This document shows positions 8,001 through 22,877 of a stretch of 23,507 nt of DNA, one piece after another. A program made the position numbers and the translations under genes. The notes under the pieces were generated by a model. It saw nothing but the letters and a program-made list of their open reading frames with translations, did not search any database and was not told where the DNA came from. The DNA comes from a virus: IMG/VR virus record IMGVR_UViG_3300030105_001121, positions 1 to 23,507 of that record; one strand, 5' to 3'. Positions within the stretch are counted from its first letter, which is position 1, and every line of letters begins with the position of its first letter.

Positions 8001-9993
8001 TGAAAAGGTTAAAGAAAAACTACCTGCAATTTTAGATGAATTAGGTATAGACATAGGAGAGTTTGGTTTACAGCTTCGTATGGATGATTTTGATAATCTT
8101 GTACAAGGAATAAATAGTAGGATTTATTCAAAGATAGGTAGTAATAGTTACATTAGTTCTGATCCTGCAACAACTAATCAAGTTAGAAAATTAGTTTCTA
8201 TAAAAAGTATTCTTGATCAACGGTTAACAGACGGTGAAAATTTTATAAAAACAGAATATAAAAACAATTGGAAATTATACCAAGAAGCAAAAGCTTTTTA
8301 TGCAGACAATGCAGTTGCAGTTTTGTATCAAAACGATTTTACTGATTGGGTAATGAAAGTTGACTCTCCGGGAAAAGGAAAAGTATCTGCAAATAACCCG
8401 ACTGGGTATAAACATTCCAACTCTTTAAAAGGATCAGGAACTAAAGATGGGTTTTTAGATTACGTATGGAAATCATTTCAAGAAGATCCTGATAGAGCTA
8501 TGAAAAATGTAAACAAAACTTTTGGTGTTTGGGATGGTGTGAAAGGTAGTGATAACTTTATTCCTGTAACAGATGAAATGATTACAAAAGCAGAGATGGG
8601 ATCATCAGGTTTCAATGCTGATGAATTAAGAACAATAAAACTTAGAAGAGAAACTTTTTCTTCAAACCTTATGGATTACTACGTAGGAAAATTTCAAGAT
8701 AATGTAGCAAAAGCTGGAGAACAAGCAGGTATTCCTAGAAGTGAGCTTAAAAGAGTAGCTTTGATAGATGAACTTACTGGCAAAAAAACAGGTGAGACTG
8801 TTATAGATTGGGATCATTATATAGATGCTATAGATAGTGTTAGAGCAGGAGACGAATCTGCAGATATTGTATATCTAGGTTTAAAAGCACAAAGGCAGTT
8901 ATTTACAGATGCTAAAGTATTAGACGATATGAACTCTGATATTTTTAATTCAACAAATGCTTTACAGTTAAGAAAAAAATTAGATGCAGTTGATTTTAAA
9001 AATAAACAAATAACAAAAAAATTAAAAGATTCTGATCAAGCTATAAAACAATCTCAGAAAAACTTAACTAATGTAGAGACTATTGTAAGGCATCAAGGTA
9101 TAATAGAAAAAGCTGTGCAGGACATAACTGGTGGGGCAGGCAATGTAGATAACTTGTTTGACTATTTTATAGAAGCAGCTCCGGGAGCAGATAGAATACA
9201 GAAATTAAAAGACTTTTTAGTTTTTGGAAAAGTATCTGAAGAGATAAGAATACCAATAGGTCCTAGAGGAACTAAAACAATAGGTAAAGACTATAAAACT
9301 TTAACCGGTGGTAAAATGACAGAAAAAGCATTTGATGCAGCTATGTCAAAAATTATTGCAGCTGGTATTAGAAGGGCTTCTACATCTCAGATTTCTAAAG
9401 CAAACAATGTGAATATAGGGATTGGAAGAATTAGAAGACAAGATAGTAATTTACAAACAGTTACTGACCATGTAGCTATGATGAGAATTTTAGAAGAAAA
9501 TGAAAAAGCCTTATCTCCGTATATAAATATGAAAGCTATGAAAGTAATTGCTAGTATGGGGTTAGTATTAGATCCTACAGCTACATCAGGTGGAATAAAT
9601 CTTGCATCTAGTGGAGGCTTGGCTAAATTTACTCCAGCTTCTTGGATTAGTAGATTCTATGCAGCCCAATCTGGAAGAACATCTTACAGGTACATTGGTG
9701 CAGAAGCTATGGTAGCTGCTTTATTACGAAATAGACATAGTGTAACTTTAGCTCTATTAGAAAATAAAGGGGCCCAAGAAGCTTTAGCTGAAATGCTTAT
9801 TACAGGAAGAGTACCTCACCAGATGATTGGTCATGCAACATATGCTTGGCTACCAGACTTAGTGGCTAGATCTGCACAGATAATTGATATAGGAGATACT
9901 ATATATACAAAAGCAGTAGAGGCTGAAGATTATAGAGGCAGTAGAACAAATCCTACAGAAGAACAAATGAGAGATTTACGCATGTTAAATTAA
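5071..9993 (+). CDS. Giant virion protein, gp16-like DNA-ejection candidate (1640 aa)
   Basis: Largest gene in the window (4.9 kb), probably an internal virion protein released with the DNA. Mostly alpha-helical and Lys/Glu/Asp-rich. Hydrophobic Gly-rich segments at about 270-295 (around IIGDVVTGITAIP) and 507-545 (from FFTPMGLGLGF to LSLLG) could insert in membrane. A long helical middle runs from about 560 to 1400. The C-terminal domain (about 1480-1640, with FTPASWISRFYAAQSGRTS and YIGAEAMVAALL) resembles C-terminal segments I associate with large phage ejection proteins. I see no N-terminal lytic transglycosylase motif of the kind found in T7 gp16. It begins 2 nt after the preceding stop, with AAAGGA as ribosome site. 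It is the last large gene before the small late genes. Confidence 0.65.
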   Translation: MAEQTLTDGNNQPIAKDDSAVKGKILVGNPAEGFRWVDESQYNMTGAVEGLPVESSTITSSLNQKYVPPVDIYGEPNVALQRAQQYAASNPEQGTAMFSAPAVQEKMRIQIQERDKEIETTESFVESLTRKRDYEIFMPDDVEDNFLKDADGKIRYKTVTIKHPWKPGKESTVSEPIYKRVVFRNFVGSAGGADEGMPEGFTSPEKGEDIVLDGVTKSEAQRAAFLYTDIIKKTGMTRPPWARGRWWERIPGYTEEGVGSMSNTSGEDLSVIEALYGTPIIGDVVTGITAIPRILSDKGTTNLLTYAMNKEKEFTDWLRTGGDEEGYYQDQLASNKKFKWSRKLTARQVKYMLDKPEAEGLDKYVHLLGENVAFTLGALRATRFIGKSKGYFKKVNDQVFKNYETKIIADLKKNNITPTRKRIDAELDKISATQFQVDANSHIKRTVMGELDAKKLSGLQKLDLFYKNAKYKTGARPGIFARDTVLQEGTFTYGQLWGQDISGDDSFFTPMGLGLGFAVATPSVLNIAIRTGQFIGLLGIDVIDDGLSLLGTHWEFGNKMAKAISESGDSGFLQNLLVQKKITSKQYKSGLKFFTALQDMPVQFRDKAIQSLKNTSKIKQELDGIVRSLSTQGLDGKPLKVGQSLKDSKFSQQFKIDPNLSDEVNLDNVLKSFNQSLGQSLELKLMTQAEAGLIQQTEAGLTLDYNFLMAAKLQEDKFITATNLNKLLDSLNAVYPKNLVSKELESFMKEAKTQINSVMGESAENIKIIKNVGAHALATAILNNSTDVARLDALVDNYASLEILELKMGGATIEDIAKVQKEASRDKYIIRRDIIAKEMKATHSKDANIFTASESSGALYVNSWEDIKSIASKKYDAAFEGIDDAISEDAYPLLKELVEETKASPSELFTGEAATDVGAVLNRIIDPVVNKRMGQFYSTLVGKEIDGLTFKNADEVKNFFETEIFPDLGAYSGLQKFEKVKEKLPAILDELGIDIGEFGLQLRMDDFDNLVQGINSRIYSKIGSNSYISSDPATTNQVRKLVSIKSILDQRLTDGENFIKTEYKNNWKLYQEAKAFYADNAVAVLYQNDFTDWVMKVDSPGKGKVSANNPTGYKHSNSLKGSGTKDGFLDYVWKSFQEDPDRAMKNVNKTFGVWDGVKGSDNFIPVTDEMITKAEMGSSGFNADELRTIKLRRETFSSNLMDYYVGKFQDNVAKAGEQAGIPRSELKRVALIDELTGKKTGETVIDWDHYIDAIDSVRAGDESADIVYLGLKAQRQLFTDAKVLDDMNSDIFNSTNALQLRKKLDAVDFKNKQITKKLKDSDQAIKQSQKNLTNVETIVRHQGIIEKAVQDITGGAGNVDNLFDYFIEAAPGADRIQKLKDFLVFGKVSEEIRIPIGPRGTKTIGKDYKTLTGGKMTEKAFDAAMSKIIAAGIRRASTSQISKANNVNIGIGRIRRQDSNLQTVTDHVAMMRILEENEKALSPYINMKAMKVIASMGLVLDPTATSGGINLASSGGLAKFTPASWISRFYAAQSGRTSYRYIGAEAMVAALLRNRHSVTLALLENKGAQEALAEMLITGRVPHQMIGHATYAWLPDLVARSAQIIDIGDTIYTKAVEAEDYRGSRTNPTEEQMRDLRMLN

Positions 9994-16739: not shown

Positions 16740-18790
16740 GATTTATATATCTCCTTCATATCTAACCAATTGTTACCTATTTTTATCTCGATTCCTATCG
16801 GCATATCATAATCTACATTGTATCTTTTCTTACATTCTTCAGGTAGAGAAAACATTGCTTCTTTCATTGTCTCTACAGCTAAGTCCTGTTCGTCTGGATG
16901 CACGTCTATTACAATGGAATCGTGAACCGTATTACAGATAATACTTTGCATTCTTCTATCTGTCAACAACCTTTTTAATTTTATTAATGCAATAGGAAGA
17001 AGATCAGCAGTAGCAAACCCTTGTACAGGATAATTTTTAATTGCTGTAGCATTAGAAACTCCTCCGTACCTCATTCTAAATACATTTTTAAAGTTGTAGT
17101 ACCTACCAGATGGAAGCACAATACGATTAAAAGAGATAGCATCATTCTGTAAAGTCTCATGCCACTCTGCAATCTGTTTGTACTTTTGTTTAAATGCTCG
17201 GTAGTACTGCATCTGTTTTGGTGTACCTAGAAACCCTCCATACAAAGGCTTAAACGTATCGGCCTTTGCTTCTTGTCTAGATACCCCCAGTACAGAAGCT
17301 GTAAACGAGTGTACATCAACGTCATTTCTGACATCTTCATACACCTTATCATCCTTAGCTAGAAAACCGGCAACTCTAAATTCTAGCTGGGCATAATCTC
17401 CTTCAAGTATGTGTCCACCTTCCCATCTACTAACTACTACTTTACGTACAGGGAAAGTTCCACCTCTAGGCATGTTCTGAAAGTTAGGATTCCTTGATGA
17501 TAACCTTCCTGTAGAGGTAACACATTGCATATAATGAGGGTGTATCCTACGTCTATCATCTAGCCCTCTCTCTATACCATCAATAAAAGTTTTTAAGTAT
17601 GTCTTAATTGCATTGTATCTTATATAGCTTTCCATAAAAGTCTTTTGTTCTGGCCTTGATGTAACTACTAAACCTTCTAGGGTAGGTCTGTCTGTTTTAA
17701 AACCATGTACCGTAAGATCAATAGGGCCTCTAGGGTTCATGCCTAATCCAGCAAACTCTCTAGTTGGCCTGTATATAACACCCTTCTTATCACAAGATTT
17801 GCAAATACGTTTTTGTTTACCTACAGTACCATCTCTTTTTAAAGCAAGTTTATATCCTCTACCATTACAAGAGGAGCACCTTTGCATAACAGTTTTAAAT
17901 AAAGGTTTTGTCAACCTAACTATACCTTGTTGAAAAGCTTGTGTACTCATAGTAGGCAATCGTTTTTTCTTTCTAGTATTACCTCTCACTTCATAGCCTA
18001 AGTTAAAGTGACTAGCCCACTGTTTCTTATTCAACACAGCCCTTGAAAATATGATCTTTGACCTGTCCTCTGGGCTATCTAAGTTAACAGGAGTGTCTCC
18101 CATTAAAGTCTTAACTTCTAAGGTTAAGTACTTCTCTAAATCTTTTACTTCTTTTGTATAGGTAGTCTTAATCTCTAATAAATTTTCATAACTAATTTGT
18201 AAGCCATTGTTCTCTACATCACACAGCACATCACAAAACTCATTCATCAATTCATTTGTAGCTTTAAGAGAATCAGGCATGTTACTTATCTGAGCATCAT
18301 ATAATTCTTTCGTTACCTGTACATCAGCTTCACCATATTCTTTGACTGTAGCCCAAGGTATGCTCTCAAACGACACATTTTTTTTCATATATTCTTCTAT
18401 TAAACTAGATTTCTTAGGAGACAGTGCATATCGTTCACAACACTTAGCTAAGGATAAAGGCACTTTCTCTCCACCATGTATAATGTACTCAGCTATCATA
18501 GTGTCATAAACTTTACCTGTATAAATAAAGCCACAAGATCGTAACCATTTCAAATCAAACTTAATATTATGTCCTACTAACAGATCTGTACCATCTAAAG
18601 CACTCTGTAGAGTATCCCTAGCATTTGGTGTAGGGTCTTGCTCTTTATGATAGAAGCACAGATACGTATGTTCCTGTCCATCTGTATAACCAACAGACAC
18701 CATCATGTTTCCTGTATAAGGATCAGCATCTGTTTTCTTATCCTCATTTACTTTATAAGTTGTTTCTATGTCCAACCAAGTTATTTTCAT
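16736..18790 (-). CDS. polA: Family A DNA polymerase with inserted DnaJ-like zinc module
   Basis: Replicative polymerase with proofreading. The 3'-5' exonuclease residues are D7/E9 (LDIET), D79 (NIKFD) and Y152/D156 (YGEAD). Polymerase motif A is D465-YAQLE. Motif B is R505, K509, F513 and Y517 in KADTFKPLYGG. Motif C is H623-D624 in VHDSIV. The residue matching E. coli Pol I F762 is Phe (F513). A zinc module sits at 305-337: C305-SSC308-NGRG, then C330-KSC333-DKKG, matching one half of the DnaJ cysteine-rich domain. This exo/DnaJ/pol order is a known feature of HMO-2011-type marine phages. At 684 aa it is close to T7 gp5 (704 aa). The ATG overlaps the helicase stop (ATGA) and the stop overlaps the next ATG. 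Confidence 0.95.
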   Translation of the reverse strand: MKITWLDIETTYKVNEDKKTDADPYTGNMMVSVGYTDGQEHTYLCFYHKEQDPTPNARDTLQSALDGTDLLVGHNIKFDLKWLRSCGFIYTGKVYDTMIAEYIIHGGEKVPLSLAKCCERYALSPKKSSLIEEYMKKNVSFESIPWATVKEYGEADVQVTKELYDAQISNMPDSLKATNELMNEFCDVLCDVENNGLQISYENLLEIKTTYTKEVKDLEKYLTLEVKTLMGDTPVNLDSPEDRSKIIFSRAVLNKKQWASHFNLGYEVRGNTRKKKRLPTMSTQAFQQGIVRLTKPLFKTVMQRCSSCNGRGYKLALKRDGTVGKQKRICKSCDKKGVIYRPTREFAGLGMNPRGPIDLTVHGFKTDRPTLEGLVVTSRPEQKTFMESYIRYNAIKTYLKTFIDGIERGLDDRRRIHPHYMQCVTSTGRLSSRNPNFQNMPRGGTFPVRKVVVSRWEGGHILEGDYAQLEFRVAGFLAKDDKVYEDVRNDVDVHSFTASVLGVSRQEAKADTFKPLYGGFLGTPKQMQYYRAFKQKYKQIAEWHETLQNDAISFNRIVLPSGRYYNFKNVFRMRYGGVSNATAIKNYPVQGFATADLLPIALIKLKRLLTDRRMQSIICNTVHDSIVIDVHPDEQDLAVETMKEAMFSLPEECKKRYNVDYDMPIGIEIKIGNNWLDMKEIYKS

Positions 18791-19998
18791 GGTAGATACC
18801 TAGCTTTCTGTATATCTATTCGGCAAGTAATAGTACCATGCCAACCAGATAACTTATTTTTAGACACACAAAGATGACGAATGTAATCCTCCTCATCCCC
18901 AAAGTTTTTACCTATTCCTATTATGATGTCTGCTTCGGCTGCCTTTCCTGTCTTACTATTCTCTAACATACTAAAATCTATCTCCTGTCTATTATGTGCA
19001 TCATAAGATGCTTGTGATACAGCCCAAACCATACAGCCATGTCTTTTTGCCACAGCTCTTGAACTTTCATATAATGCTCTTAACTTTTCATCTACCCTTG
19101 AGTATGTTCCATTTACAGCAACCTTATCTAGCTGATCTACAAAAACTATATCTGGCTTATTTATCTCTATAAACTTATCTATTTCACGAATTGAAATCTC
19201 TCTACCTTCAAGCATAAACAAATTATCTTTTATTTTTTTGTTGTATACTTCATTGTATACCTCAATATTATCTTTTAACTCACTGACAGTCTTGCCTAAA
19301 TAAGCACAGAAAACTCTGCCCTTGACCAGACGGCCCGGTTCCTCATTTGCAAAGTATGCAACTTTAAATCCTTGTTTTAGATATTCGGCTACTAAGTAAG
19401 AACAGAATGTTGTCTTACCTGTTTCTGGCCTAGCAAAGATAATACCAAGATTGCCCCTGCCCACACCTCCCACTCTGCTCTGTAGAGAAGGCAACTCAAA
19501 GTGGAACTCAAAACCTTTCTCATGGGTCTCTAGATAGTCAGCAACATCATCCTCTACTCGGCTGTAGTTTGTGCTGTCCTCTGGCTGTTTGTTAACAAGC
19601 TGATCTACAAGTATTCGTAAACCCTCATAGTCTCCTTCATTACCTAGCCAAATGTCAGTAGCTTTAGAACCAATCTTCTGTGCCCTATCTCTTCTCCAGA
19701 AATTTACAATAAGATCTTGCATCATCTCAGGGTTATCCTGTACATGATTTGTCAGATCTTTTATAACAAGCTCTATAGAATCTCTAGAAGAGTCAGGCAT
19801 AGAAGGAAATCTATCCCTGTGTAATTGTAACAACATATCCGTTGTCAAATCCTCACCATATTTGTCATGTGCAAAGCAAATAGTGTCAAACACTGTACCT
19901 ACACCGTTGGCAAACATGTCTTTGCCTACAACATCACTGGCCTTTTTATAAAAGGTGTTGTTGAGACATTGTGCTAATATTTGTTTCTCTATCGTCAT
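18787..19998 (-). CDS. Replicative DNA helicase, DnaB/T7 gp4-type RecA fold
   Basis: Hexameric helicase that unwinds DNA ahead of the polymerase. An N-terminal helical region (1-165) precedes a RecA-like core. Walker A is A189-RPETGKT196-T, with the catalytic Lys at 195. Walker B is PDIVFVDQLD, with D288. A conserved-type WAVSQAS carries Q329, and an ENSKTGKAAEAD stretch (346-357) holds the region expected to contact nucleotide and DNA. The C-terminus closes on KNKLSGWHGTITC, a pattern seen in phage DnaB-like helicases. Unlike T7, primase and helicase are separate genes here, with a 28-nt gap holding a hairpin. The Shine-Dalgarno is weak (GGGGT). The stop overlaps the polymerase ATG (ATGA). 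Confidence 0.9.
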   Translation of the reverse strand: MTIEKQILAQCLNNTFYKKASDVVGKDMFANGVGTVFDTICFAHDKYGEDLTTDMLLQLHRDRFPSMPDSSRDSIELVIKDLTNHVQDNPEMMQDLIVNFWRRDRAQKIGSKATDIWLGNEGDYEGLRILVDQLVNKQPEDSTNYSRVEDDVADYLETHEKGFEFHFELPSLQSRVGGVGRGNLGIIFARPETGKTTFCSYLVAEYLKQGFKVAYFANEEPGRLVKGRVFCAYLGKTVSELKDNIEVYNEVYNKKIKDNLFMLEGREISIREIDKFIEINKPDIVFVDQLDKVAVNGTYSRVDEKLRALYESSRAVAKRHGCMVWAVSQASYDAHNRQEIDFSMLENSKTGKAAEADIIIGIGKNFGDEEDYIRHLCVSKNKLSGWHGTITCRIDIQKARYLP

Positions 19999-20011
19999 TT
20001 TCTACCCCATT

Positions 20012-20025
20012 ACACTAAAAAGTGT
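20012..20025 (-). other. Short hairpin between primase and helicase genes
   Basis: A perfect 5-bp inverted repeat, ACACT/AGTGT with a 4-nt loop, lies between the primase stop (20027-20029) and the helicase start (19998). It is one of the few places in this operon where genes do not overlap. On the transcribed strand the loop is TTTT and no T tract follows, so it is unlikely to terminate. It might be an RNA processing site or control helicase initiation, or be chance. Confidence 0.3.
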
Positions 20026-20026
20026 T

Positions 20027-20782
20027 CTACGTTAACTCAGTTAGTATTTTCTCCTTTGACCAAGTTTTAATGTCATTGTCTAAAAACTTAATGTTCGTCT
20101 GCATATGTACACTCAACTCCTTAGCAATGTCAATAGATTTTTTTGTAGCATCTTTGTCAAGGGCTACCACAGCCAACTTAAAGTTGTTTACTATCTCTGG
20201 AATATGTTCCTGTAGAAGGTTAGTTCCCATGAGAGCAACACCTGCATGTCCTGCTATCGTTACTGCACAGGCAGAAGCACAATCCTCTACAATCACAGCC
20301 ACATCACTTTTGTTCTTAGTGATAAATGGTAGTTTAGAAGAGGCATATCGTTTCCACTTAGGCTTTCTATTTTTTAAGCTACGACCTACAGCATCAACAA
20401 TAGTGCTTTCTTTGTATATAGAAAATACACACCTATCTTCTTTAACATCGTACTGTATATTACAGAACCTATTCTGGTAAGCATGGAATATATTATTATC
20501 ACGAATGTAATCCATAGACAGTAGGCTCCTCTCTACAGGAACCCACGTTGCTGTCTCTAAACTAAAGCCTATCTCTTGTTTTTTACTCTGACTAGACCTG
20601 TGTACCATGCCTTGCACTTTTCCACTAATGTTACAACTAGCATAGAAACAATTATACAACAGTACGTTATGCTCGTTACTAACAGAAAAAGAATTGTTAT
20701 GGCCACATACAGGGCAGTTGCTCCTATGAGAGACACCTTCTGGTACAGCCATTGCTTCAATGTATCCTTGGATGTCAACCAT
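20027..20782 (-). CDS. DNA primase with zinc finger and TOPRIM domain
   Basis: Synthesises RNA primers for lagging-strand replication. The N-terminal zinc domain has C23-PVC26 and C45-x4-C50 (LLYNCFYASC), as in bacterial and T7-type primases. A basic stretch, RSLKNRKPKWKRY at 134-146, suits the catalytic RNA polymerase region. TOPRIM motifs follow: VIVEDCASACAV with E166, and VALDKDAT with D209 and D211. At 251 aa it is about the size of the primase half of T7 gp4 and stops before any helicase Walker motif; the helicase is the next gene. The ATG overlaps the upstream gene by 8 nt (ATGGTTGA). Confidence 0.9.
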   Translation of the reverse strand: MVDIQGYIEAMAVPEGVSHRSNCPVCGHNNSFSVSNEHNVLLYNCFYASCNISGKVQGMVHRSSQSKKQEIGFSLETATWVPVERSLLSMDYIRDNNIFHAYQNRFCNIQYDVKEDRCVFSIYKESTIVDAVGRSLKNRKPKWKRYASSKLPFITKNKSDVAVIVEDCASACAVTIAGHAGVALMGTNLLQEHIPEIVNNFKLAVVALDKDATKKSIDIAKELSVHMQTNIKFLDNDIKTWSKEKILTELT

Positions 20783-21302
20783 CTTTACTCTCTATTATCT
20801 GTACAAGCTCTGCTTTGTCTAAAGGTATATGAAAGAAAGGCTCTGTAAGATGAGGGGCACTGGTAAACCTACTGTTCTGTATAGTACCAATAGGTGATTG
20901 CTCTACATCTTCAGCATTTATAAACCATGCGTTTTTTAAATCATAATCAAATACTACAAATTTAAAAATGTGGTTAGGATATTTCTCTCTCCATATATTT
21001 ATTAATCTTTGTTTTCTTTCAGGTATTCTTATTTCTTTCCATGAGGGATTCCATGTACCTTTCCATTGTGTTTTTATTTCAACTTCAAAGAAATGTTCTT
21101 TGTCTTCACTAATATTAGATTTGTCAAAGCTGTTAATAACCTCTTTCTTTGCAGACACATCAAAATTATAATTTTCTATACTTACTATATCTTCATAGTT
21201 ATGTTCTTTTAAATAGTTTATCATAGCATTTTTAGCTTTTTTGTCATACATAATATATGATAGTCTATCAAATGAACGGTTTTTGTTAACATGCTTTTTC
21301 AT
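20775..21302 (-). CDS. Hypothetical protein, candidate PD-(D/E)XK fold (175 aa)
   Basis: First gene of the leftward operon. Function not recognised. A nuclease-like pattern is visible: D48 (YNFDVSAKKE), then E73/E75-I-K77 (FFEVEIKTQW), which is D...ExK, followed by two helices and IFKFVVFDYD, a strand-rich stretch. This is the order expected of PD-(D/E)XK enzymes, but sequence alone is not enough. PERKQRLINIWREKYPNH resembles the helix after the core in such folds. RNA leader: about 27 nt from the expected promoter start to the ATG, with AAGGA about 8 nt upstream. It overlaps primase by 8 nt. Restriction-type nuclease, recombination factor or host-DNA degradation enzyme are all possible. Confidence 0.65.
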   Translation of the reverse strand: MKKHVNKNRSFDRLSYIMYDKKAKNAMINYLKEHNYEDIVSIENYNFDVSAKKEVINSFDKSNISEDKEHFFEVEIKTQWKGTWNPSWKEIRIPERKQRLINIWREKYPNHIFKFVVFDYDLKNAWFINAEDVEQSPIGTIQNSRFTSAPHLTEPFFHIPLDKAELVQIIESKDG

Positions 21303-21335
21303 TAAGTAATCCTTGTTAAGTTAATAATATTAACT

Positions 21336-21363
21336 ATTATATGAATGAAAAACAGGCTGTCAA
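21336..21363 (-). promoter_or_regulatory. Leftward promoter of the replication operon
   Basis: On the minus strand a perfect -35 box TTGACA (21363-21358), a 16-bp spacer and a perfect -10 box TATAAT (21341-21336) precede the 20775-21302 gene. The expected start is near 21329, leaving a leader of about 27 nt with an AAGGA ribosome site. This is a strong host sigma-70-type promoter and would drive the whole 10-kb leftward operon, since no other clear promoter is seen within it. Confidence 0.85.
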
Positions 21364-21383
21364 CAAATCTTTTTACTTGACAG
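21357..21383. promoter_or_regulatory. Inverted repeat between the divergent promoters, possible operator
   Basis: CTGTCAA (21357-21363) and TTGACAG (21377-21383) form a perfect 7-bp inverted repeat around a 13-bp AT-rich centre. The arms contain the two -35 boxes, so part of the symmetry follows simply from back-to-back promoters; the extra C/G pair is additional. The arm contains TGTCA, the same core that is over-represented around this region. It could be an operator covering both promoters. Confidence 0.45.
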
Positions 21384-21404
21384 GATATTGCTCAACTGTA
21401 TAAT
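21377..21404 (+). promoter_or_regulatory. Rightward promoter of the small-gene cluster
   Basis: Perfect -35 box TTGACA (21377-21382), 16-bp spacer, perfect -10 box TATAAT (21399-21404). The expected transcription start falls at about 21411, exactly at the ATG of the next gene. Strength and form match the leftward promoter, so both units are likely read by unmodified host RNA polymerase early in infection. Confidence 0.85.
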
Positions 21405-21410
21405 GGTTCT

Positions 21411-21656
21411 ATGGATGATTTACAAAATGATTTTGAACAAGATGTATTAGACTTAATTGATACGTATAATAAAGAAGGTTTAGGAACACATGATCAAGTT
21501 TCTATACTATCTTATTTATGCTTTGAACTCTGTAATAAGTTATTCATGGATGTAAGACTTGGTTACACTCATATATTATCTGTGCTTATGCAGAGAATGG
21601 TATACGATATGCATGATGATCAAGAAAACAAAGAAGACAAAAAAATACTACATTAA
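21411..21656 (+). CDS. First early gene, acidic hypothetical protein (81 aa), probably leaderless
   Basis: Function unknown. Acidic and helical; starts MDDLQNDFEQDVLDLIDTYN and ends in a charged tail (HDDQENKEDKK). A central helix with SILSYLCFELCNKLFMDV and a second amphipathic helix look well folded. The ATG lies 6 nt after the -10 box, so the message probably begins at the start codon with no room for a ribosome site. There is no other in-frame Met until residue 46, and the frame has no Shine-Dalgarno, so leaderless translation is the simplest reading. Small acidic first-expressed phage proteins often take over host factors, but nothing here shows a target. Confidence 0.65.
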   Translation: MDDLQNDFEQDVLDLIDTYNKEGLGTHDQVSILSYLCFELCNKLFMDVRLGYTHILSVLMQRMVYDMHDDQENKEDKKILH

Positions 21657-21667
21657 AGGAATACATT

Positions 21668-21880
21668 ATGTTTAGTTTTTTATCAGGTATAATTACAGGA
21701 ATTATTAAGAATGGATTTCTGTTTTTATTTATTAGAGATAGTGGCAAAAAAGCCGAAAGGAGTAAAAATCTTGAAGAATCAAATAAATTACTTAAAGAGT
21801 ATGAAAAAGTCAATTCTCGTAGTAGGGATGTCAAGTCTGTTATTGGTAGGTTGCGTAGGAAGTCTAACAAGGATAAGTGA
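21668..21880 (+). CDS. i-spanin-like (Rz-type) small membrane protein (70 aa)
   Basis: One N-terminal membrane helix (residues 3-22, FSFLSGIITGIIKNGFLFLF) is followed by a charged helical domain (about 24-64; KKAERSKNLEESNKLLKEYE then VIGRLRRK). This is the layout of an inner-membrane spanin subunit. Its 3' third contains, in another frame, the start of a lipoprotein gene (21801), the embedded arrangement typical of Rz/Rz1 pairs that fuse inner and outer membranes at lysis. At 70 aa it is short for Rz (T7 gp18.5 is about 143 aa). AAAGGA lies 9 nt upstream. A membrane-anchored exclusion or takeover factor is the main alternative. Confidence 0.6.
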   Translation: MFSFLSGIITGIIKNGFLFLFIRDSGKKAERSKNLEESNKLLKEYEKVNSRSRDVKSVIGRLRRKSNKDK

Positions 21881-22025
21881 TTGCCCAACCTTTCCTTGGC
21901 CACCAGAAGCAGTTGTCAACACTTTAGAAGCAGAAGCCTATGCTAATGCAGAATTTTCTGTATGGTTAGCAGAGATAACAGCACATGGAGAGAAAATAGA
22001 AATTTGTCAGGGTGAAAACGAATGA
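21801..22025 (+). CDS. o-spanin-like (Rz1-type) lipoprotein (74 aa)
   Basis: Starts MKKSILVVGMSSLLLVGC: a short basic N-terminus, hydrophobic core and lipobox LLVGC, so signal peptidase II should cut before C18 and leave a 57-residue lipoprotein. The mature part begins with Ser/Thr/Arg, then CPTFPWPPEAVVNTLEAEAY, a Pro-rich CPxFPxP segment like small phage o-spanins. The rest is helical and acidic. I chose this ATG because only it gives a proper signal sequence; an upstream in-frame start (21711) would bury it. It overlaps the i-spanin-like gene by 80 nt in a different frame and the next gene by ATGA. An outer-membrane exclusion lipoprotein is an alternative. Confidence 0.7.
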   Translation: MKKSILVVGMSSLLLVGCVGSLTRISDCPTFPWPPEAVVNTLEAEAYANAEFSVWLAEITAHGEKIEICQGENE

Positions 22026-22183
22026 AATACTATGTCAAAGTTATTGACGAAGACGACAACGTAGTTTTGTCAGTTGGTGTACATAGTATTGATTTGGCAA
22101 AACGATCTGACCAGAAGATGCTATGTCAGAAGATACAAGAAGTTTGTCAGCATGATGATGATACACAAATGGAAATGTTTTAA
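22022..22183 (+). CDS. Small hypothetical protein (53 aa)
   Basis: A short frame from ATG 22022 to TAA 22181-22183, reading MKYYVKVIDEDDNVVLSVGV and on to an acidic, Met-rich end (DDDTQMEMF). The first 20 residues look like a beta hairpin, the rest a helix with two cysteines. Support: ATGA overlap with the lipoprotein stop, AGGGTG about 9 nt upstream, and regular codon structure. Function unknown. It contains TTTGTCA twice, once as T-TTG-TCA and once as TT-TGT-CA. Confidence 0.65.
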   Translation: MKYYVKVIDEDDNVVLSVGVHSIDLAKRSDQKMLCQKIQEVCQHDDDTQMEMF

Positions 22184-22201
22184 CTTGACAAGGAGGATAT
22201 T

Positions 22202-22561
22202 ATGTCAGACAGTACTTTTATTAGTTGGTTAGAAACCGAATTAACAATAAAGGAGAAAGAAGATATGACCAAAAAGAAAAAGTTAGAAGTGCCTATGATT
22301 ACAGATACTCAGTTAAAATTTGTCAACCGAGTAAAAACTCTTGTATCAGACATACAAGATAGTGGAGTAGAGCATCTTACCTATTCTGATATCAGCAAAC
22401 TTGATAGAGCTTATGATGCTGTAGTGGAAGAGTCTAATCTAATGCATCAAAGTCAAACTGTAGAGTACGGAGAAAGTAAAGGAGATGTTATACGAGCCTA
22501 CTACAAGGATTTAGTCAGACCAGATGACCCTAATGCTTGGAAGGAAAAAGATGATGAGTAA
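22202..22561 (+). CDS. Hypothetical early protein with possible second start (119 aa)
   Basis: Function unknown. Residues 1-21 (MSDSTFISWLETELTIKEKE) precede a second Met (residue 22, ATG 22265) followed by the Lys-rich MTKKKKLEVPMITDTQLKF. The rest is a helical, charged domain with VNRVKTLVSDIQDSGVEHL and an acidic end. Both starts have good ribosome sites: AAGGAGG 6 nt before 22202, AAGGAG 9 nt before 22265. Two products, of 119 and 98 aa, are possible. The N-terminal FISWLET resembles FMDWLDT at the start of the last, partial gene. It overlaps the next gene by 8 nt. Confidence 0.65.
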   Translation: MSDSTFISWLETELTIKEKEDMTKKKKLEVPMITDTQLKFVNRVKTLVSDIQDSGVEHLTYSDISKLDRAYDAVVEESNLMHQSQTVEYGESKGDVIRAYYKDLVRPDDPNAWKEKDDE

Positions 22562-22877
22562 TTATCTCATTATAAAAAAGGAAGATTTGTCAGAAGTTTT
22601 ACCTTCTTGTATACAGGGTAAAATATTTACTGCAAAATTTGTCAAGAAAGATGGAGAGTTCCGTACTATGAATTGTCGTCTTGGTGTAAAAAAACATTTA
22701 AAGGGAGGAAAAGATTATAATGATGCTACTAATGTCAATATTACTGTTTTTGATTTAAAGAGTAAAGGGTATAGAAATATTCCTGTACATAGACTAGTGG
22801 AAATAAATTGTGGTAATTTGTCAATCCGTAATTGGAATACAGATACAAGCAATGTTATTATGACTGTTGCTGTATAG
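22554..22877 (+). CDS. DUF2693 (Sm/SH3-like beta-barrel) protein (107 aa)
   Basis: Small protein of a widespread phage family (DUF2693, also called WYL_2). The typical block is KDGEFRTMNCRLGVKKHLKGG at residues 32-52 (seen as FRTMNCRLGV then KKHLKGG), followed by VNITVFDLKSKGYRNIPVHRLVEINCG. Predicted as a five-stranded Sm/SH3-like barrel, it is thought to bind nucleic acid or protein; its exact role is unknown. The start is ATG 22554, which overlaps the previous stop by 8 nt and has AAGGA 8 nt upstream; ATG 22551 is equally in frame but closer to that site. A terminator follows at 22911. Confidence 0.75.
   Translation: MSNYLIIKKEDLSEVLPSCIQGKIFTAKFVKKDGEFRTMNCRLGVKKHLKGGKDYNDATNVNITVFDLKSKGYRNIPVHRLVEINCGNLSIRNWNTDTSNVIMTVAV

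Follow-up and report, generated by a model that had tools for sequence, protein, structure and literature searches.

The window analysed here is the whole of a 23,507-nucleotide stretch (IMG/VR record IMGVR_UViG_3300030105_001121, positions 1 to 23,507), a 23.5 kb fragment of an HMO-2011-type podovirus. Around its divergent early promoters the seven-base word TTTGTCA is repeated on one strand (Table 1), and computation shows that this polar array is real and evolutionarily maintained. Recounting gave 12 plus-strand and 0 minus-strand copies between 19653 and 22823, and 1 copy on each strand in the other 20.3 kb of the window; the shorter core TGTCA occurs 25 times on the plus strand and twice on the minus strand of the array. 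An earlier note on this DNA had counted twelve heptamers and about 25 cores on one strand, and both figures were recovered. Five heptamers are antisense in leftward genes and seven are sense in rightward genes, where the phases TTT-GTC-A, T-TTG-TCA and TT-TGT-CA are used 2, 3 and 2 times, and 7 of the 8 GTC codons precede AA. We reproduced the note's account of these orientations, phases and GTC-AA pairs, and also its single plus-strand TGTCA in the 11-kb virion block, which lies at 9344 and is the only one in the first 11 kb of the window. The spacing in the window is irregular, with single words strewn over kilobases and no matching tandem array.

We compared these counts with several expectations of chance. 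For the whole window, 14 copies were observed against 5.8 ± 2.7 in dinucleotide shuffles, a count reached in 0 of 100 shuffles, with the caveat that the chance expectation is then about 6 across the window on both strands. In a codon-preserving shuffle, in which synonymous codons were permuted within each gene (5000 trials), 2.7 array copies were expected against the 12 observed and the maximum was 7; the excess held separately for leftward genes (5 observed, 1.05 expected; p 0.0002) and rightward genes (7 observed, 1.63 expected; 0 of 5000). This excess, together with the use of all three reading phases, rules out a coding explanation. Among the 210 permutations of its letters, TTTGTCA ranks first in the array (12 copies; mean 0.49), the runner-up being ATTTGTC, an overlapping frame, with 8; in the remainder of the window TTTGTCA comes 116th. 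When 14 related regions, which are not independent, were pooled, TTTGTCA occurred 187 times on one strand vs 12 on the other, and its one-base variants were far less strand-biased. The permutation ranks and these single-substitution neighbours rule out an explanation by base composition. The note had expected fewer than one heptamer by chance, from a rough base-composition estimate. In the motif profile of the 14 regions, the 3' TGTCA is strict, the T-rich 5' part is graded, and a purine is favoured after the word.

Table 1. Positions of the array, its sites and associated features in the window
Feature	Position	Strand	Remarks
Polar array	19653..22823	+	12 exact TTTGTCA, 25 TGTCA cores
TTTGTCA site	19748..19754	+	antisense in helicase gene
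TTTGTCA site	19861..19867	+	antisense in helicase gene
TTTGTCA site	20153..20159	+	antisense in primase gene
TTTGTCA site	21120..21126	+	antisense in 175-aa (amino acid) gene
TTTGTCA site	21240..21246	+	antisense in 175-aa gene
TTTGTCA site	22003..22009	+	sense
TTTGTCA site	22066..22072	+	sense
TTTGTCA site	22143..22149	+	sense
TTTGTCA site	22319..22325	+	sense
TTTGTCA site	22586..22592	+	sense
TTTGTCA site	22638..22644	+	sense
TTTGTCA site	22817..22823	+	sense
Outlying TTTGTCA, polymerase gene	17907..17913	+	array strand; polymerase-gene sites also in some relatives
DnaB-like replicative helicase	18787..19998	-	PHROG_19 1e-57; Pfam DnaB_C
DNA primase	20027..20782	-	PHROG_47 2e-14; CxxC...CxxxxC zinc-finger-like N-terminus + RNA-polymerase/Toprim domain; proposed site reader
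Leftward sigma-70-type promoter	21336..21363	-	12/12 consensus, spacer 16 nt
Rightward sigma-70-type promoter	21377..21404	+	12/12 consensus, spacer 16 nt; array centre in relatives

Turnover of positions and choice of strand in related phages

Relatives, collected using the helicase, keep the same-strand TTTGTCA cluster at many positions unlike the window's, and in them it extends several kb rightward past the window edge. Each of four longer records holds a single cluster (strand counts of 24:2 in 8.5 kb in G001, 16:2 in G002, 23:1 in G011 and 12:1 in G012), in which TTTGTCA ranks first of the 210 permutations, with a density outside the cluster of 0-0.18 per kb per strand. G012 (L285-L287), a 55,186-base contig whose ends overlap by ~100 bp with one mismatch, probably represents an entire genome of ~55.1 kb despite its classification as linear; the overlap looks like that of a circular assembly and locates no genome end. 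In nine genomes aligned on the divergent promoters and averaged, TTTGTCA reaches 2-3 per kb within 1-2 kb of the promoters, falls over ~5 kb on each side and is near zero elsewhere, and the array strand is unchanged at the promoter centre. The back-to-back promoter pair itself (window 21336-21404) recurs in G002, L016, L017 and L020. Late genes outside the array contain 10 copies in both orientations against 19.7 from codon shuffles, a slight avoidance.

Pairwise alignments revealed that 308 of 455 sites, counted in both directions and in overlapping pairs, were retained, where flank identity or the behaviour of other 7-mers would predict ~200-214. Retention above expectation indicates constraint on the sites already present, and further sites also arise. 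Simple inheritance of fixed positions is ruled out, as relatives preserve copy number and strand and differ in position. TTTGTCA behaves as a position-free, density-type polar motif, whose copy number and orientation are kept more than particular sites. The note read the bias as tied to the DNA strand rather than to transcription, and the codon shuffle, the position turnover with kept polarity and the excess retention support this; it had proposed a codon-preserving shuffle and a comparison with relatives, and the former did not return similar counts, while the latter revealed a same-strand cluster at largely different positions rather than sites conserved only as codons.

IMG/VR was scanned for triplets of TTTGTCA that share an orientation and are separated by at most 30 bases. 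At least 118 new loci were returned, at least 6 of them with this primase at strong hidden Markov model (HMM) scores, which added HMO-2011-type phages to the set; two already-known loci, L074 and L158, also matched the primase. A control scan with the reversed word returned 120 loci with no strong primase match and one weak match (36.7 bits). Among the matches listed, strong primase loci were found with the word and not with the reversed word (8 vs 0, Fisher test p 0.007; 6 vs 0, p 0.014). The guanine-plus-cytosine (GC) content of array phages with this primase spans 35-53%, and one locus, L273, has the array and the primase with no helicase match within its 5.9 kb. Triple-word matches in L217, L239 and L246 proved to be low-complexity repeats only, some apparently coding. 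Separately, L269 (63% GC) and L227 (55% GC) carry dense TTTGTC(A/G) runs in fetched stretches that have no HMO-type primase.

A primase-helicase tree places every array phage in a single clade (Shimodaira-Hasegawa-like approximate likelihood ratio test support, 99). Outside this clade, and without the array, are HTVC033P (also checked by the codon test), HMO-2011, the CRP phages and a group with 31% GC; in the parts of isolate genomes examined, we found no array in HTVC033P, HMO-2011, CRP-1, -2, -3, -207, -212, -235, -345 or -738. Polarity is uniform within a genome and the strand differs between lineages: TGACAAA lies on the helicase- or primase-sense strand in the window, G001, G002, G011, G012, L250 and L273, whereas TTTGTCA lies on that strand in G009, L167, L190, L206 and, weakly, L235. 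In this opposite-polarity group the early arm holds the sites, which often carry the upstream extension TTTAGYGTSGnnn, form tandem 7-bp doublets or overlie TGA stop codons. An extended motif, TTTAGYGTSGnnnTTTGTCA, was seen in L284, L167, L206, L190, L209 and L235, often every ~24 bp and at stop codons. A search across both polarity groups for a protein family restricted to array phages found none, two scans of bacterial genomes for a host found no close relative and only distant helicase matches in metagenome bins, and a literature search found no paper describing a TTTGTCA array.

Candidate readers of the array

The usual readers of polar, position-free motifs are machines travelling along the DNA. 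Our tentative preference, held with clearly less than even confidence, is that the TTTGTCA sites are recognition sites of the phage's own T7/DnaG-type primase and form a local replication-start zone. The primase, with the DnaB-like helicase, would read the array strand while it is single-stranded, either as lagging-strand template or as displaced strand; primers would begin opposite the T of GTC in TTTGTCA, giving pppACAAA, and the array would be where primosomes load and priming begins at an early-region replication origin. We infer the primase as reader, the single-stranded step, the origin and the fork direction. In favour are the excess over coding and composition, a polarity unrelated to the direction of genes, the density peak at the divergent promoters and the strong primase matches obtained with the word, L273 among the loci, as well as the following observations. 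The predicted primase structure (mean predicted local distance difference test score, 85) matched 2au3 (Foldseek E 4e-9) and T7 primase 1nui (Z 14.9), with matches to DnaG and T7 primase at Z 14.9-16.5 over residues 64-251, and the primase alignment has a CPxC...CxxxxC N-terminus; the model fits a DnaG/T7 primase fold. T7 primase reads 5'-(G/T)2GTC-3' and has among its primers ACAA, corresponding to TTGTC (PMC12839067), and TTTGTCA contains TTGTC and so conforms to this rule. The strict 3' and graded 5' sides of the motif profile fit a site whose 5' side is copied, and the restriction of the array to one primase-helicase clade is compatible with a primase as the reader.

The resemblance to the T7 gp4 system, in which sites are also used strand-specifically by a primase of the same fold, extends to candidate T7 sites that are clustered on one strand at 230-423 (PMC12839067, Table 1). 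T7 sites, however, are genome-wide and switch strand at the origin, while the array is a zone of ~10 kb with no switch and a required 3' A. Several observations weigh against the primase. The array keeps its strand across the divergent promoters, and with an origin there half of it would be on the wrong strand; the opposite strand used in G009, L167, L190, L206 and L235 requires the fork direction to differ by lineage; and a site needed for every Okazaki fragment should be spread genome-wide, yet the word is rare elsewhere. A primase can accommodate these three points only with a special local zone and a lineage-specific fork direction, both of which would be further suppositions. In addition, the 3' A of TTTGTCA is outside the T7 rule, single-strand structure at the sites is not lower than with shuffled flanks (p 0.13), L077 is the sole member of the array clade without an array, and L250 lies inside the opposite-polarity clade yet has the window's polarity. 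The tree does not single out the primase, since other replication proteins probably have a history in common with it. The earlier note had listed primase recognition among possible roles; TTGTC is among the pentanucleotides of T7 primase (PMC12839067) and the array follows a primase-helicase clade, which makes the role compatible and not proven, and its other proposal, a polar mark for replication, segregation or packaging, is too broad to reject.

Coating of the early region by an asymmetric double-strand DNA-binding protein (a repressor, a silencer or a partition protein), in the manner of the L5 repressor at mycobacteriophage L5 stoperators, is, in our view, unlikely. Like the operators and stoperators of L5 (cluster A), the sites are asymmetric, numerous and built on a TGTCA core; they are centred on the early promoters, the -35 box of each divergent promoter contains TGTCA on one of its two strands, distant lineages repeatedly show tandem 7-bp doublets, and the L167 group has its longer motif. 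However, L5 stoperators follow transcription in their orientation and reversed sites do not repress (PMC9283540), whereas the array keeps one polarity across divergent genes and is opposite relative to the arm genes between lineages, which counts against the stoperator role raised in the earlier note. L5-type sites occupy short intergenic spaces, and here most sites are intragenic, with 12 of 12 array sites of the window inside called genes. The promoters are not systematically covered, and the sites showed no consistent overlap as operators on the divergent pair. A word of 7-8 bp is short for a repressor site, the window yielded neither an integrase nor a clear repressor, and no clear helix-turn-helix repressor was found among the early proteins scanned (the window being a fragment). 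The HMO-2011-type group is described as having no lysogeny genes in subgroups IV-X (PMC9038755).

Recognition by a phage nickase, producing localized one-strand interruptions as in T5, phiKMV-like phages and Pseudomonas phage tf, appears quite improbable. Phage tf has 14 top-strand nicks at TACT/RTGMC (PMC3517423), and the array shares with such interruptions a short asymmetric one-strand word that is unevenly placed and independent of genes; an arbitrary strand choice between lineages would also be expected. Yet no enzyme family tracks the array, TTTGTCA on the opposite strand is not visibly depleted below background, and the array turns over in position and has 3-4 sites per kb, far denser than known nick maps.

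Chi and KOPS (FtsK-orienting polar sequences) are bacterial sequences of the same polar, position-free density type. The array sites could be Chi-like and halt, or change the activity of, a RecBCD/AddAB-type nuclease that enters at an end left by packaging or injection, an explanation to which we give little credence. The strand in the window's group would suit protection from an enzyme entering at the small terminase subunit (TerS) side, where G001, G002 and G003 have 0.7-0.9 kb without a long called gene. The opposite polarity of the L167 group, however, would need the DNA end on the other side; one motif spans phages of 35-53% GC with probably different hosts and is absent from related SAR11-type phages, and, unlike Chi or KOPS, the array is local to a few kb of phage DNA centred on the early promoters.

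That the array is an origin of the iteron kind, to which a so far unrecognised initiator binds, is scarcely probable. TGACA-type cores occur in plasmid iterons, the repeats share one direction, and parts of G009, L167, L209 and L235 show a unit-like spacing of ~24 bp, but the window's sites are single and irregular over kilobases and a search for an initiator gene found none, giving one weak PHROG match (E 0.015, 83-aa protein). Evasion of type III restriction, known for T7, would account for the bias and not for the enrichment.

Beyond the choice of reader, it is conceivable, if somewhat doubtful, that the density of a seven-base word on one strand, kept by this phage clade over the ~10 kb surrounding its early promoters, acts as a local code. 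A replisome or nuclease moving along the DNA would read it, which would define an origin or loading zone without fixed sites, with the strand switched in evolution. If so, the array would represent a new type of origin or polarity element. HMO-2011-type phages are among the most abundant ocean viruses, and their replication start is not described in the literature found; a conserved, position-free polar word at the early promoters offers a specific handle on that start. Were the primase the reader, the phage would concentrate strong priming sites in one zone rather than spreading them, and were it a nickase or nuclease, an old unexplained phenomenon would be extended to marine phages. Any phage genome can be screened for the statistical signature (first of 210 permutations, confined to one strand, with its centre at the early promoters).

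Gene layout and neighbouring features

The closest isolate match to the window is Pelagibacter phage HTVC033P (helicase identity 40%). Structural genes run rightward up to ~11 kb, followed by leftward replication genes (ribonucleotide reductase, endonuclease I, exonuclease-like, polymerase, helicase and primase) and by an early arm that runs rightward from 21.4 kb. An Rfam search gave no match, and a search of the PDB by sequence gave nothing useful. In the G001 lineage, a Dam-type adenine methyltransferase (L052:8992-9414, minus strand; Pfam PF05869, 1e-27) lies beside the primase.

The 175-aa protein encoded beside the window's primase (20775-21302, minus strand) has an EVEIK stretch reminiscent of PD-(D/E)XK nucleases. 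Its family is common to SIO1, P12053L, CRP-1, CRP-4 and CRP-345, and its candidacy as a cognate enzyme is unsupported, the family being present also in array-less SIO1-type phages. In the early arm, overlapping open reading frames of 70 aa and 104 aa (21668-22025, plus strand), the second with a lipobox-like MKKSILVVGMSSLLLVGC, look like a nested spanin pair in an odd place.

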